Of a stretch of 64,000 bases of DNA, positions 40,357-50,440 are shown one piece after another. Source of the DNA: Chthonomonas calidirosea T49. Its GTDB lineage: Bacteria > Armatimonadota > Chthonomonadetes > Chthonomonadales > Chthonomonadaceae. The translations under genes and the position numbers were made by a program. Numbering within the stretch: position 1 is the stretch's first letter; every line of letters begins with the position of its first letter. The DNA lies in contig NC_021487.1 of the NCBI RefSeq assembly GCF_000427095.1, positions 2,315,325 to 2,379,324 on the forward strand, written 5' to 3'. The notes under the pieces were generated by a model. That model saw only the letters and a list, made by a program, of their open reading frames with translations. It was not told the DNA's origin and ran no database searches.

Positions 40357-40821
40357 ATGCGGGCCAACGCCTTTTTCAACAAACTGTGCCTGTTTTTCAG
40401 CTTGGTGTTCGCTTTAACACCAGGTTTACCAGCGCTCGCCTCCTGGCAATGTACCGATGGAACCCCTTGCGCTCCCCACTGCTTTGCGAAGACCTCGTCC
40501 TCATTAGGAGCACCATGCTGTTGTGGGCACATCATAGCACGTTGTCCGCATTGTAGCCGCCGTCTGATCGAGCCGGCTGCTTCCGCAAAGCCGGCGCCGG
40601 CTTTAGGCGCGCAGCGCTGTGTGCAGGTTGTGCAAAAGCGTTCGTTGGCGGTAATCCTCCTTCGCACTGTGCCGCTACAGGTGGCAAACTACGTTCCTTC
40701 CTATCGTATCCCACATGCGCCTGCGACTATTCGCTACCTCGCGTTTCCTTCAACCTCCGTTTTCTCCCTATGGCGTTTTCTGCGTCCCCCTCCTAATCGT
40801 GCTCCTCCCTCCTCTCTCTAG
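40357..40821 (+). CDS. Secreted cysteine-rich protein next to RND efflux genes
   Basis: 154 residues. A signal peptide (MRANAFFNKLCLFFSLVFAL...ALA) is followed by a Cys-rich segment with nine Cys in about 40 residues (WQCTDGTPCAPHCFAKTSSS, APCCCGHII, CPHCSR), then a Pro/Arg-rich tail. Cys spacing suggests metal or disulfide binding. It precedes the RND adaptor by 109 bases and probably shares the operon, so periplasmic metal capture is a reasonable inference. GAGAGGA precedes ATG 40357. No named family recognised. Confidence 0.7.
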   Translation: MRANAFFNKLCLFFSLVFALTPGLPALASWQCTDGTPCAPHCFAKTSSSLGAPCCCGHIIARCPHCSRRLIEPAASAKPAPALGAQRCVQVVQKRSLAVILLRTVPLQVANYVPSYRIPHAPATIRYLAFPSTSVFSLWRFLRPPPNRAPPSSL

Positions 40822-40930: not shown

Positions 40931-42898
40931 ATGAAGCTGTTTTGGTGGCTGCTTATCGGGGCTAGCCTCTTTGTGGCCTACACGGCCTACCGAATGCGCC
41001 AGGCTGGTTTACGCCTGCACCTAACGCTGCGCCAGCTTGTTACGGGATTGCTGGGCACACTTTTGCTACTCGGTGCGCTCTTTCTCGCCCATTGGGTCGT
41101 TGCAAAGCATACTGTGCCAGGACATATGAGCGTTATCGAGGCACAAGCCATGGATATGTCGGCCATGCATGCCCCAGAAGGCGCGGTGCCGGTGGCTGTC
41201 TTCACTGCGCGCTATGCACCCTTTGACGCCTCTGTGCGCTATGCGGCCAACGCTGTCGCCTATCAAGAAGATGCGATCAACCCGCGTGTAACTGGCCTAT
41301 TGGAATGGATGCCCTTCTACCCCAATATGCCGGTTCATAAAGGACAGGTGTTAGCGCGACTCGATACAGCCGAGTTACGCACCAAGCTGGCCGCCGAGGA
41401 GGCCGCTTTGGCAGAGGCTGAGCATGCTGTGTTGGAGGCCCAAGCGCAGTATCGTCAGGCCGAGTCGGCTTACCAACAGGCACAAGCTCAGGTGAAACAA
41501 GCTCAAGCACAAGAAAGAGAGGCTCAGGCCGACCTGACGATAGCTCAACAAGACCTGATGGCGCATCACGAAGAGGCCAAGATCGCAGAGGCCAACCTCG
41601 ATAGCGCTCTGGCCCAGCGCGATGAAGCCCAAGGACGCCTTGCGGCCGCCAAGGCGAACCTAGCTTACTGGGCTCGACAAAAGCAACGCGATAACGACCT
41701 ACTTGCGAAGGGATTTCTCTCTCAACAGCAGGCGCAGCAGGATGAGGTGCAGTTTCAGAACGCGACTTCGGAGGTCGCCGCCGCCACAAGCCGCTTACAA
41801 AGCGCCGAAGCTGCCATTCGCTCGGCCAAGGCGCAGCAGGCTCAGGTGCAGATCGGGCTGCAGCAGGACGAAGCGATGATCGCCCAAAAACAGGCGGCAT
41901 TGCAGGCCGCTCAGGTACAAGTGCAGCAGGCACAACAGGGCGTATCCGCTGCGAAATCGGCGCGTGATGCCGCCCAACAGGCGGTTGTTCGCCAAGAGGC
42001 TGCTGTAGCCCAGGCAAAAGCGCAACTTCGAACAGCGCAGGTGATCTTGGGCTACACCACCCTGCGGGCAGATTGCGATGGCGTAGTTACGCAACGCCTT
42101 ATTAGCCCTGGCACGCTTGTGCAGCCTGGGCAGACCATCCTGATGGTAGATCAGATAGACCCTATTCGCGTGCAGGCCCAAGTGGCTCAAGAGGATGCCG
42201 AGCGGCTGCATGTGGGCGATCCTGTGCTCATTCGTACTAGCGGACCACATCCGCTTGTCTACCGGTCCCACCTATCGGCCATCTTTCCAAGCGCCGATCC
42301 GACCGCCCATACCACTATCGTGGAAGCCCTTGTTGCCAATCCGAATGGCCTCCTACACCCTGGCGACTACCTTACACTTCAGGTGATCTATGCCAAAAGC
42401 GCTCGTGCGCTTATTGTGCCCTCTTCGGCCATTGTCTATCAGCCGCAACCTACCAGTCCCATTCTTGCGACGAAGGCTACGCCAGCTGTATGGGTTATGC
42501 GGCGTGGACGTCCTCAGCGCATCGTCTACACCTGCACCATGCATCCGCAAGTACAGCTGGATCATCCAGGAAAATGCCCCATATGAGGCTGGCCACTGGT
42601 CCGTGAGGCCATAGGAGGACAATGGAGAGCACACCTCGTTTCAGTAACGTTGGGCGATGCCAACGAGCGCTACACCCAGATCCTTAGCGGAATTCAGAGC
42701 GGCGAGCAGGTTATCTACGAGGGATATCGGTCGCTTCATGAGGGCGATCCGGTGGTGCCGGTGCCGTGGGGACCTGCAGGCCCAGTTGCTTTGCCAACGG
42801 CAGCTCAAGTGAATCGCGCGCTAAATACACCAATGGGGACATCTGCTCGTACGATGCCGGGGATGTCTATGCCATCGCAGGGAGGGGGGCGGCCTTGA
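40931..42898 (+). CDS. RND efflux adaptor (HlyD/CusB-like) with heavy-metal-binding motif interrupted by in-frame TGA
   Basis: N-terminal membrane helices are followed by a lipoyl/barrel start (ARYAPFDASVRYAANAVAYQ), a long Ala/Gln-rich alpha-hairpin (about 145-370) and the returning barrel (YTTLRADCDGVVTQRLISPG). A heavy-metal-binding domain follows: YTCTMHPQVQLDHPGKCPI (first Cys is residue 535), then TGA at 42584-42586 (codon 552), then GWPLV. The consensus is CPxCGM-LV, so TGA replaces the second Cys. The same frame continues with adaptor-like sequence (VTLGDANERYTQILSGIQSG-EQVIYEGYRSL) to TGA 42896-42898, which overlaps the TTG start of the RND pump. The full frame is 655 residues. Either UGA is recoded (Sec or readthrough) or the gene has a nonsense mutation. 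The short product would end at 42586. Confidence 0.85.
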
Positions 42899-45800
42899 GC
42901 ACCGATCCATCTGTAAACGCGCCGCACATACCACGGCGTAACCCGTTGCATCTTATCCACGCTTGGGCGATAGACCATGCTGCGGTTGTGTTCGCCTTCT
43001 ATACGGCGGTGGTGTTATGTGCTGTTTTCGCCATAGCCTTCGTTATCCCACGGCGTTTTGCACCCTATGTGCCCAGCCCTATGCTCGGCATCGTCACCAT
43101 GATGCCGGGGCTTTCTGCCCAAGAGATGGAGACCTACGTTAGCAAGCCTATCGAAGAACAGATGGTGCAGATAGGCGATCTGCACTACATCCGAAGTATC
43201 TCTCAAGAGGGCTTCTCCATCGTTATTTTGGAGTTCAACTATGGGGTGGACATCCAAAAGGCGCGCACAAAAGTGCAGGAGCTACTAAATGTGACCAACG
43301 CCTTTTTACCGCCTACTACCGCTAATCTTAAACCCTCCTTCGTGATACCTGTAGACCCCTTGAACCTGCCTATCCTCTCTCTGGCTCTAACGGGCGATCC
43401 AAATAGGGGCTGGACACCACAAAAGCTGCGCCAGTTTGCCGACAACGTGGTGATCGCGCGGATAAAACAGGTGCCCGACGTCGACTCCGTGGTGGTCTTT
43501 GGCGGCTATCGGCGCCAGCTGCAGGTCATCGTAGACCGCAACAAGCTTGCCGCGCATGGCCTCTCCATCCTGGACGTACGCGATGCGATTGACCGCTATA
43601 ACCAGAGCCAGCCCGGTGGTGTGCTTACGCAGGGGGATCAAGAGAGCATTGTTCGGGTCAATTCGTTGGCTCGCAGCGCACAAGACGTATTAAACTACCC
43701 AATTACAGGCATGGCTACCGATAAATCGAATAGCCAGGGCCCACCACGCACCATCTTCATTCGCGATGTGGCCCATGTTGTAGACACTTACTGGGAGCGA
43801 CGGTCGGCCTACGAGTATCTCGACCACCCACCGGGAAATTCAGGGCGAGTGATACCTGCTATCGAGGTTTCGGTTATCCAGAACCCAGCAGCCAGTTCCT
43901 ACACCGTTGTGCCGCAGGTGCGGAAAGTGCTCGCGCAGCTAGAACAGGAATACCCTGGAGTTCACTTTCATACGGCCTACGATAACGCTCATTTTGTTGG
44001 TGTTCTGTTCCATAACGTTTGGGAGGAGTTGGCCGTAGCTGTGGTGCTGACGGCGATCGTTATCGTGTTCTTTTTGGGTGAATGGCGTGGCACCCTCATT
44101 GCTCTCATCACCATTCCTACCTCTTTAGCCATTGCGGTGCTGATGCTCATTCCCATGCATATGACCTTCAATAGCGGTACGCTCATTGGGCTGCTTATCG
44201 CCATCGGTCGCCTTGTAGATGACACCATTATTGACATCCACTCGGTGGAGCGCTATCTACGAAGGGGGCTTTCGCCACGTGAGGCCACCATCGAGGGCAT
44301 TGCGGAGGTTCGGCTGGCTGTTTTAGCCTCTACCCTGATGATCCTCATCGCGTTGCTGCCCCTGCTGTTTTGTGGAGGCATTACCCAACTGATGTTTGTA
44401 GAGCTGGTGTGGCCGCTTATCTTTGCCCTGCTTGCCTCCATGATGGTCTCTTTCACACTTACCGCCGTGCTTTGTGCAAAATGGCTTCGTTCGCCTGTTG
44501 GGCAGACAACCGATGGAACCCCACCGCTTCTGCGTCCCCTTTCGTTTCTCATTACCTCTTTTCAAGGAGGTCTCGAACGCCTGGAAGGGGCCTATAGGCG
44601 AGCTTTGAGACGTCAACTTACGAATCGGTTTTGGGCGTTTGTACGAATCGGGCTTGTGGTCATTGTTGGGTTTACCTTCTACAACTTCATCGGTTCAGAG
44701 ATGATGCCTTTAGCCGATACGGGTCAGGCTGTAGGTTTTTTAGAGATGCAGCCCGGAACCTCCTTTCAAGCGACAGAACAGGCGGTTCACCGCTTGGAGC
44801 AGATACTGTTGAAGTATCCAGAGCTGCAGAAGGCCTCTATAGAGATCGGAACCGAAAGTATGTTTGAGAGCTGGAACCCCTATTTCACCGGTTATCAGAT
44901 GCCGCAGGCCAATGGAGCTTCGATGATGCTCACCTTTAGCGATAAGGATATGCGGAAGCGCACTATTTGGCAGATCATGGATGCCGTTCAGAAGGAGGCA
45001 ATGAGCACGATCCCTGGCATTCGACGGCTCCAAATAAAGGAGATGGGATCGGACGTTATGGCCACGGCAGACGCCCCCATTCATATCAATCTCTACGGTC
45101 CGAACCTGCAGGTGCTATATCAACTTGGGAAGCAGGCCCTCGCCATCGCCCAAAAAACACCCGGGCTTGCACAGCCCGCTCTCACCTGGACGATGGGGGT
45201 GCCCGACTACGAGGTAAAGGTGGACCCTGCCAAAGCGGCAGCGCTAGGTCTCTCCCCCCTGAATGTGGCCGAACAGGCCTACTATGCGCTCCACGGTGGG
45301 CTTACCAACAGTTTCTACTACCTACCCGACAACCTACGTCAAGACACCATTTTGGTGCGTTACGATTCGCAGGATCGAGCGACACCGCGCGATCTCGCCG
45401 AACTCTACCTCTCAACACCCGATGGAAAGCAGGTGCCCCTCGAAAGCGTCGCCCAGATTCTCTATCGCGCGGCTCCTACCGCCATAGAGCACGACAATTT
45501 GCGAAGGGTCATCGGCATTACAGGTTTCTATCGTAAAGACGGGCCGCCCTCCATGGACCTCACCATGCAAGTGATGATGCGCGCAATGGAGCAGTTGAAC
45601 TTTCCACCCGGTTACGGCATCGAGGTGAGAGGCGATATGACCCAGATGATGGACAGCTTTCGTCGCCTCCTGTACGGATTGGTTGTCGCGCTTGTCCTCA
45701 TGTATTTCGTGCTGGTGGCGCAGTTCCGTGGCTTTCTACAGCCCTTGCAGATGATCGCCTCAATACCGCTGGAGCTTAGCGGGGTGTTTACGGCGCTATG

Positions 45801-46212
45801 GCTGGCGCATCAGGCGTTCTCCACGGTTTCCATTTTGGGAATTATTGTGCTGAGTGGAATGGACATTACCACGGCTGTTTTGATGATAGACAGCATTATG
45901 CGTTACCGAGATCGGAAGGTTCCACGCGAGCAAGCTGTTGTTGAAGGCGGGATGGAACGTCTTCGGCCTATCCTCATGACAGCGCTCATTGAGCTGGCAG
46001 TGATGTTGCCGGTGGCGCTAGCCCCCAAAACCGGTTTGGATGCCTATCAGCCCTTGGGAACCACCATTGTTGGCGGCCTGCTTGCAGGAACGCTCCTAAG
46101 CCTGTTTGTCATTCCCCTGATGCACACCTTCGTGGACGATCTGATGCGATGGGGCTATCGCATCTATTTTGGGCGGGATTGGACATGGTCTACAGGGGTA
46201 GAAAAGAGATGA
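42895..46212 (+). CDS. RND-family efflux permease
   Basis: 1105 residues from TTG 42895. Twelve-helix AcrB/CusA-type pump: an N-terminal helix, periplasmic porter loops with GLSAQEMETYVSKPIEEQM, a helix bundle with GTLIGLLIAIGRLVDDTIID-IHSVERYL (proton-relay Asp pair), a second loop, and a C-terminal bundle with LQPLQMIASIPLELSGVFTA, GIIVLSGMDITTAVLMIDSI and RLRPILMTALIELAVMLPVA. It uses the proton gradient to expel metals or drugs with the adaptor and an outer-membrane channel (not in this window). AGGGAGGGGGG precedes the start; TTGA overlaps the distal stop of the adaptor frame, tying its translation to that frame. Confidence 0.93.
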   Translation: MSTDPSVNAPHIPRRNPLHLIHAWAIDHAAVVFAFYTAVVLCAVFAIAFVIPRRFAPYVPSPMLGIVTMMPGLSAQEMETYVSKPIEEQMVQIGDLHYIRSISQEGFSIVILEFNYGVDIQKARTKVQELLNVTNAFLPPTTANLKPSFVIPVDPLNLPILSLALTGDPNRGWTPQKLRQFADNVVIARIKQVPDVDSVVVFGGYRRQLQVIVDRNKLAAHGLSILDVRDAIDRYNQSQPGGVLTQGDQESIVRVNSLARSAQDVLNYPITGMATDKSNSQGPPRTIFIRDVAHVVDTYWERRSAYEYLDHPPGNSGRVIPAIEVSVIQNPAASSYTVVPQVRKVLAQLEQEYPGVHFHTAYDNAHFVGVLFHNVWEELAVAVVLTAIVIVFFLGEWRGTLIALITIPTSLAIAVLMLIPMHMTFNSGTLIGLLIAIGRLVDDTIIDIHSVERYLRRGLSPREATIEGIAEVRLAVLASTLMILIALLPLLFCGGITQLMFVELVWPLIFALLASMMVSFTLTAVLCAKWLRSPVGQTTDGTPPLLRPLSFLITSFQGGLERLEGAYRRALRRQLTNRFWAFVRIGLVVIVGFTFYNFIGSEMMPLADTGQAVGFLEMQPGTSFQATEQAVHRLEQILLKYPELQKASIEIGTESMFESWNPYFTGYQMPQANGASMMLTFSDKDMRKRTIWQIMDAVQKEAMSTIPGIRRLQIKEMGSDVMATADAPIHINLYGPNLQVLYQLGKQALAIAQKTPGLAQPALTWTMGVPDYEVKVDPAKAAALGLSPLNVAEQAYYALHGGLTNSFYYLPDNLRQDTILVRYDSQDRATPRDLAELYLSTPDGKQVPLESVAQILYRAAPTAIEHDNLRRVIGITGFYRKDGPPSMDLTMQVMMRAMEQLNFPPGYGIEVRGDMTQMMDSFRRLLYGLVVALVLMYFVLVAQFRGFLQPLQMIASIPLELSGVFTALWLAHQAFSTVSILGIIVLSGMDITTAVLMIDSIMRYRDRKVPREQAVVEGGMERLRPILMTALIELAVMLPVALAPKTGLDAYQPLGTTIVGGLLAGTLLSLFVIPLMHTFVDDLMRWGYRIYFGRDWTWSTGVEKR

Positions 46213-49145: not shown

Positions 49146-49970
49146 TTAGGGTTCAAACCACAGGACAGCCGGGCTGACACCCCAGGAACCCTGCGGCCTC
49201 CCGGGCGAAGCGTCGCCCGTGTCCTGACCTGCGTCTCGCAACAGTCGCATCCCACAAGAAAGGATGTTGACCGCGCCGACCACATCGGCGTTTCCCTCGA
49301 AACCACACTCCACACAAGCGAACTTGGCTTGTGTCTGCCGGTTGTCCGCAGAGACATGGCCGACAGGTGCGGCTGGTGTTCTGCGGCGGAACGCGAACCA
49401 GCCTTGGTCGAGGAGGGACTTGTTCAGGCCCGACTTGGCCCGAACGTTGCTTCCCGGCACATCGGCTGTGCCTGCCGCCAACTTGGACTTTTTTCGTCCC
49501 TGCAAGTCCTCGATACACACCATTGCGTGGTTTTTGCGGATCGCGGTCGAGGGCTTCTGCAGCAAGTCGCGGCGCCCATTGGCGATGCGGGAATGAGTCT
49601 TTGAGACCCTGGCTTTCGCCTTCTTCCCATTGTTGCTGAACTTTACCTTGCGGCTCATGGTCTGCTGCGCTGTGCGCAAGGCCACCTCGGGCCGCTTCAA
49701 GCGGCCCAGCGGCGCATAGGCGGTCTGGATCGACATGAACCACTTGCGCAAGAGTGGCTCACGGTGAGGTTCTTCACGGTACCCAGCACTTCCCGACGGT
49801 TGCGGGAGCGCAGCCAGCCCAGCTTGGGCAGGAAGAGGCGGCTATTGGCCGGGTCGAGTTTGATCGGTTTCGGACCGGGGTAGCGGAAGCTGTCGTGCTG
49901 GCCCCTCTTCTTGAAGCGCGGGAAGCCGCCCTGCTTTGAAGGCTTGAGGCGCTGCCTGTCCGGAATTGTC
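49146..49970 (-). pseudogene. tnpB: tnpB remnant (IS605 OrfB, RuvC-like RNA-guided nuclease family)
   Basis: Pieces in more than one frame reconstruct part of TnpB. One frame reads KPSKQGGFPRFKKRGQHDSF...LDPANSRLFLPKLGWLRSRN-RREVLGTVKNL. The other reads KWFMSIQT...QQTMSRKVKFSNNGKKAKAR...AMVCIEDLQGRKKSK (first RuvC Asp)...SGLNKSLLDQGWFAFRRR...GHVSADNRQTQAKFACVECG-FEGNADVVGAVNIL (last RuvC Asp). The N-terminal ~100 residues are missing. An internal deletion removes the segment with the middle catalytic Glu and the first zinc-finger Cys pair. Non-functional. Confidence 0.85.
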
Positions 49971-50440
49971 CTCTTGGTCTAGGAGCGATGACAACGCGAT
50001 TGGGCACGGAGGGCACGGCGTTTTCACGATGCACGTCCCTTTGGTCTTAGTGAGGAAATACCGCCGCAGAGTGTTCGATGGCGACGCCATCCCGCGGCTG
50101 GGCGCCCTCCTCGCCAAGGTCTGCGCCGACTTCGAGGCGCAAGTAATCGAGATGGATGGGGAGGATGATCACGTTCACCTGTTGGTGGAAGATCCTTCCG
50201 AAGTGGCCGTCTCCAACCTCGTGAACAGCCTTACAGGCGTCTCCATCCGCCTGCTGCGCAAGGAGCGGCCCGCCATTCAGAAACGCTCTTGGAGGGGCGT
50301 GTTGTGGTCGCCGTCTCTCATCCTCCTGTGGCGGCGCTCCGATCTGCATCGTGCGCCACTCCATCGAGCCGCAGCAAACACCCCACGGAAAACCCAAGGA
50401 CGGCTACGCCGTCCGCGCTATCCTTCCCCGCCCTGAACCG
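49966..50440 (+). pseudogene. tnpA: tnpA remnant (IS200/IS605 Y1 transposase)
   Basis: The first 110 residues are good TnpA: NAIGHGGHGVFTMHVPLVLV-RKYRRRVFDGDAIPRL...IEMDGEDDHVHLLVEDP, with the HUH pair HVH. After GVLWSPS (about 50312) a small deletion shifts the frame. The matching continuation CGGAPICIVRHSIEPQQTPH-GKPKDGYAV is in another frame. In it the expected catalytic Tyr of the QYIEQQ motif appears as Ser. Inactive. Confidence 0.83.

Follow-up and report, generated by a model that had tools for sequence, protein, structure and literature searches.

A predicted selenocysteine in the metal-binding knuckle of an RND efflux adaptor of Chthonomonas calidirosea T49

The 64,000-nucleotide stretch of the C. 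calidirosea T49 genome analyzed in the present study (hereafter, the window) contains a gene for an RND periplasmic adaptor that is interrupted by an in-frame TGA at the second Cys of a CPxC metal-binding motif. Does this codon end the protein, or is it read through, and as what? A preliminary description of the window had proposed selenocysteine (Sec) insertion, programmed readthrough, and a recent Cys-to-stop mutation as options. We consider it very likely that the UGA is recoded as Sec, which would yield a full-length RND adaptor of 655 residues with Sec in its metal knuckle. The features discussed are summarized in Table 1.

Table 1. Features of the adaptor locus (positions within the window)
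Feature	Position	Strand	Remarks
Small Cys-rich, probably exported protein (WQCTDGTPC...PCCCG...CPHC)	40357..40821	+	Similar proteins precede the adaptors of G054 and G045
Putative Sec-containing RND periplasmic adaptor gene	40931..42898	+	655 codons, counting the UGA as Sec
HMBD (PF19335), residues 532-553, around YTCTMHPQVQLDHPGKCPIUG	42524..42589	+	Profile match
In-frame UGA, candidate Sec codon, in place of the second Cys of CPxC (residue 552)	42584..42586	+	
Candidate SECIS A, GGUC in loop	42590..42611	+	-6.4 to -7.3 kcal/mol; loop starts 8-10 nt after UGA
Candidate SECIS B, UCC-GUG-[AGGC]-CAU-(A)-GGA	42600..42616	+	Loop 19 nt after UGA; weak, -2.2 kcal/mol; inferred
RND pump gene (ACR_tran); TTG is the probable start and overlaps the adaptor stop (TTGA)	42895..46212	+	Pfam/NCBIfam matches

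When the adaptor frame was translated, the TGA was its single internal stop, in the context YTCTMHPQVQLDHPGKCPI*GWPLV, and 103 open codons followed up to the adaptor stop TGA at 42896-42898. With the internal TGA read as Cys, the product matched the HMBD profile (36.9 bits; Pfam cut-off, 23.6), HlyD_D23 (PF16576) and HlyD_3 (PF13437) in Pfam, and RND_mfp (TIGR01730; 202.7 bits; cut-off, 94.9) in NCBIfam. The translation and the HMBD match bear out both the placement of the TGA at the second Cys of CPxC and the continuation of the frame to 42898, as previously described. The protein is an RND periplasmic adaptor, with HlyD/MFP domains above the curated cut-off and an adjoining RND pump gene; it does not belong to the CusB/CusA heavy-metal efflux subfamily as judged by the CusB profile (NF007303; 31.5 versus 390 bits). 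Standard annotation would shorten it by 104 residues and thereby hide the metal-binding motif. The solved structures nearest to its HMBD are Legionella-type copper ATPases (8ovl and 3rfu). Another HMBD (YVCPMHSNVGATHPGFCPLCGMPL) is encoded elsewhere in the T49 genome, within a long membrane protein (L067, genome positions 232628-232699, minus strand), and keeps the normal Cys.

The product of the pump gene is an AcrB/ACR_tran protein (PF00873; 639.6 bits) that scored below the CusA/CzcA cut-off (TIGR00914; 361 versus 701 bits). The overlap between the final TGA of the adaptor and the probable TTG start of the pump was found as described, and this arrangement (NTGA) is common to the window (TTGA), G054, and G045 (GTGA and ATGA), two Armatimonadota genomes considered below. 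The pump gene itself ends in a TGA beyond which approximately 100 codons are open. We rejected recoding here and regard this codon as a normal terminator; it lies beyond the end of the ACR_tran match, and the extension has no obvious family resemblance. Upstream of the adaptor, the small Cys-rich protein had no match in Pfam or NCBIfam. Its resemblance to the counterparts upstream of the other adaptors was clear for G045 (E 4e-9) and weak for G054 (E 0.002), and it may be a part of the adaptor/pump efflux system without a described family. Further downstream, ORFs at 49146-50436 look by eye like what is left of an IS200/IS605-type element, with a TnpA-like ORF on the plus strand and a TnpB-like zinc-ribbon fragment on the minus strand.

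The preliminary description had suggested searching the genome for the Sec genes, and all four are present. The genome is a single contig of 3,437,861 bases; profile searches identified selA (529 bits; cut-off, 268), selB (376 bits; cut-off, 242), and selD (364 bits; cut-off, 125), and ARAGORN detected a tRNA-Sec with the anticodon TCA (selC). Furthermore, the known Sec position of selD (CAG-U-ASK) is an in-frame TGA, and the strong GG-loop hairpin downstream of it (-12.3 kcal/mol) fits the bacterial SECIS model well. Because of this machinery and the selD codon with its hairpin, it is very probable that C. calidirosea translates UGA as Sec at other sites. The selD gene (L070:1531; approximately 126253 in the genome) is thus likewise a selenoprotein gene that may be cut short by standard annotation. 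SelD and the adaptor were the only selenoproteins seen among the genes inspected in this genome. Despite the full Sec pathway, no formate dehydrogenase was found above the cut-off; a formate-dehydrogenase-like match (L138) scored below it, lacked an in-frame stop, and had an N terminus that looks like a NuoG-type subunit.

We compared the adaptor with those of 291 Armatimonadota genomes. The top-scoring relative outside the T49 genome was encoded by G054, a member of another genus of the same family, at 38-40% identity. The G054 gene contains one in-frame TGA, and this TGA occupies the same codon (WTCSMHPQIRENHPGKCPI-U-GWKLIPQAVGG in G054 versus YTCTMHPQVQLDHPGKCPI-U-GWPLVREAIGG in the window), within HPGKCPI-U-GW. 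The G054 genome also encodes selB (353 bits) and tRNA-Sec. In contrast, the orthologue in G045, which is likewise Sec-competent, has Cys at this position (CPICGWKLVP), as did every other Armatimonadota adaptor copy inspected in which the motif was found. The UGA thus aligns with Cys in homologues and is kept in an independent Sec-encoding lineage, which is the outcome of the homologue alignment that the preliminary description had proposed. The unusual GW after Cys/Sec is common to the adaptors of the window, G054, and G045, and these three proteins form one clade (support 100/99), in which their end branches measure 0.96, 1.53, and 1.31 changes per column, respectively. Scans of the 291 genomes for CPIUGW and for a looser in-frame CxMHP...CPxU pattern identified the window and G054 genomes only; therefore, the UGA-bearing adaptor is rare within Armatimonadota (2/291 genomes). 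Other matches of the loose CPxU pattern were not HMBD domains, and an apparent TGA in the G225 adaptor was a true C-terminal stop, the HMBD of that protein being CPKC.

The coding sequence is conserved on both sides of the UGA. Between the window and G054 adaptors, which are approximately 2.5 changes per column apart, identity rose from 38% upstream of the UGA to 51% downstream of it. Identity by codon position after the UGA was 0.54/0.75/0.33, with third positions saturated. A dead 3' end would not keep such a pattern, and we therefore regard this region as translated. As judged from these alignments, the pattern is the mark of a translated, selected sequence and indicates strong purifying selection beyond the UGA.

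The cis-acting element is less clear. The published bacterial SECIS model has a loop of 3-9 nt with G in the first two positions, lies 16-37 nt from the UGA, and folds with an MFE of at most -7.5 kcal/mol (PMC13188914). Such an element was clearly found in the selD gene of T49 and in G054, the adaptor gene of which has a SECIS of the textbook bacterial type (UCCCAC-AGGCU-GUGGGA; approximately -9 kcal/mol; loop 19 nt after UGA), whereas the window contains only weak or ambiguous hairpins. The preliminary description had pointed to a stem with GGUC in its loop as a possible SECIS (candidate A). The stem exists (5 bp, 42590-42594 with 42607-42611). However, we rejected it as the likely SECIS because its loop is too near the UGA (8-10 nt versus the required 16-37), its stability was not above chance (17/200 shuffles were equally stable), and it has no counterpart in G054, in which the clear SECIS lies further downstream of the UGA. 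Candidate B has the same offset and AGGC loop letters as the canonical G054 hairpin. Neither candidate in the window was significant against shuffles, and a search of 42500-42750 against Rfam gave no match. A loose bSECIS scan was non-discriminating; the SECIS score alone proves little because the loose model also accepts many Cys homologues. The lack of a strong SECIS in the window counts against the Sec reading, as does the number of UGA-bearing adaptor genes known (two). A thermophile is expected to need a stable SECIS, which weighs in the same direction.

The SECIS is thus the weak point of the Sec reading. A recent nonsense mutation, converting a Cys codon to TGA in one step from TGC or TGT, would give a truncated adaptor of 551 residues that retains the HlyD/barrel domains, and the window has no strong SECIS that would speak for recoding. 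Nevertheless, the identical TGA codon is found in a different genus approximately 2.5 changes per column away, both genomes encode the Sec machinery, and the 103 open codons after the UGA are better conserved than the rest of the gene. We conclude that the Cys-to-stop option is effectively ruled out by the UGA common to G054 and the purifying selection beyond it. A sequencing error at the TGA has a negligible probability; 454 reads typically err by homopolymer indels and not by substitutions, and the same TGA is present in the independently sequenced G054 genome. What may be said for an error is that the T49 genome was assembled from 454 and Sanger reads at 20x (PMC4959169). On the comparative evidence, which Sec insertion can explain, neither a nonsense mutation nor a sequencing error would be a sufficient explanation.

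Readthrough of the UGA by a near-cognate tRNA, inserting Trp or Cys instead of Sec, would likewise explain the conservation after the UGA, and the unclear SECIS of the window is compatible with it. However, we consider it very improbable because Cys at the UGA position in orthologues is the classic Sec/Cys exchange, the genome has a Sec pathway, and the SECIS of G054 is canonical. Moreover, TGA ends both the adaptor and pump genes and, therefore, is not reassigned. Sec insertion, in contrast, is strongly supported by the Sec machinery, the same UGA in the G054 genus, and the Cys orthologue in G045.

Based on these comparisons, SelB and tRNA-Sec (UCA) very probably recode the adaptor UGA in the cell, and a SECIS hairpin within the reading frame shortly after the UGA would direct them. 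The 655-residue product would carry a C-terminal heavy-metal-binding knuckle of CxMH...CPxU in place of CPxC. Selenolate is softer and more acidic than thiolate; given this general chemistry and the known Cys form of HMBD, it may act on a soft metal or metalloid ion destined for the pump, either as its ligand or as its redox partner. Ribosomes passing the UGA probably also feed pump translation, given the overlap between the adaptor stop and the pump start. An extension of this model, which we regard as unlikely, is selenium-gated efflux, in which Sec insertion sets both the chemistry of the adaptor metal site and, through translational coupling, the amount of the pump. If so, full pump production would occur only with selenium available, a possible reason being that the cargo is a selenium or soft-metal species.

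A review published in 2026 catalogues 119 families or subfamilies of prokaryotic selenoproteins, several of which are in metal transport (PMC13188914). An RND adaptor, HlyD, or HMBD has no entry in its selenoprotein table and no mention in its text (PMC13188914), and we found no report in the open-access literature of Sec in Chthonomonas or in such adaptors. Accordingly, the HMBD-bearing RND adaptor is, as predicted from sequence, a new selenoprotein family, in which the mechanism is known and the host protein is new. An RND efflux adaptor with an HMBD metal knuckle would thus join the selenoproteome, in a phylum for which we found little selenoprotein work. The clean Sec/Cys orthologue pair also raises the question of why selenium is paid for at a metal-binding site, not an enzyme active site.

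Several known systems resemble this adaptor in part. The SO_0444 family Cu/Zn efflux transporter (NF033936, UxC; PMC13188914) is likewise a predicted bacterial selenoprotein in metal efflux; however, it comes from a different family of transporters and is not an HMBD-bearing RND adaptor. In the putative mercuric transport protein (PF02411, C/SxxU; PMC13188914) and the cation-transporting ATPase (TIGR01525, UxxC; PMC13188914), Sec replaces one Cys of a pair in a metal transport protein, as in the adaptor, but these are other families (the latter being P-type ATPases), and their catalogue rows do not have the HMBD CPxU knuckle. The SelD of T49 similarly has an in-frame UGA at a known Sec position and then a hairpin with a GG-type loop; it differs in being an enzyme of selenium metabolism and in having a strong SECIS, which the adaptor does not. 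The other HMBD-bearing RND adaptors of Armatimonadota (PF16576/PF13437 with PF19335) have the same domain order, the same CxMHP...GKCPxCG motif, and an adjoining RND pump, but carry Cys at the UGA position in the inspected copies with the motif.
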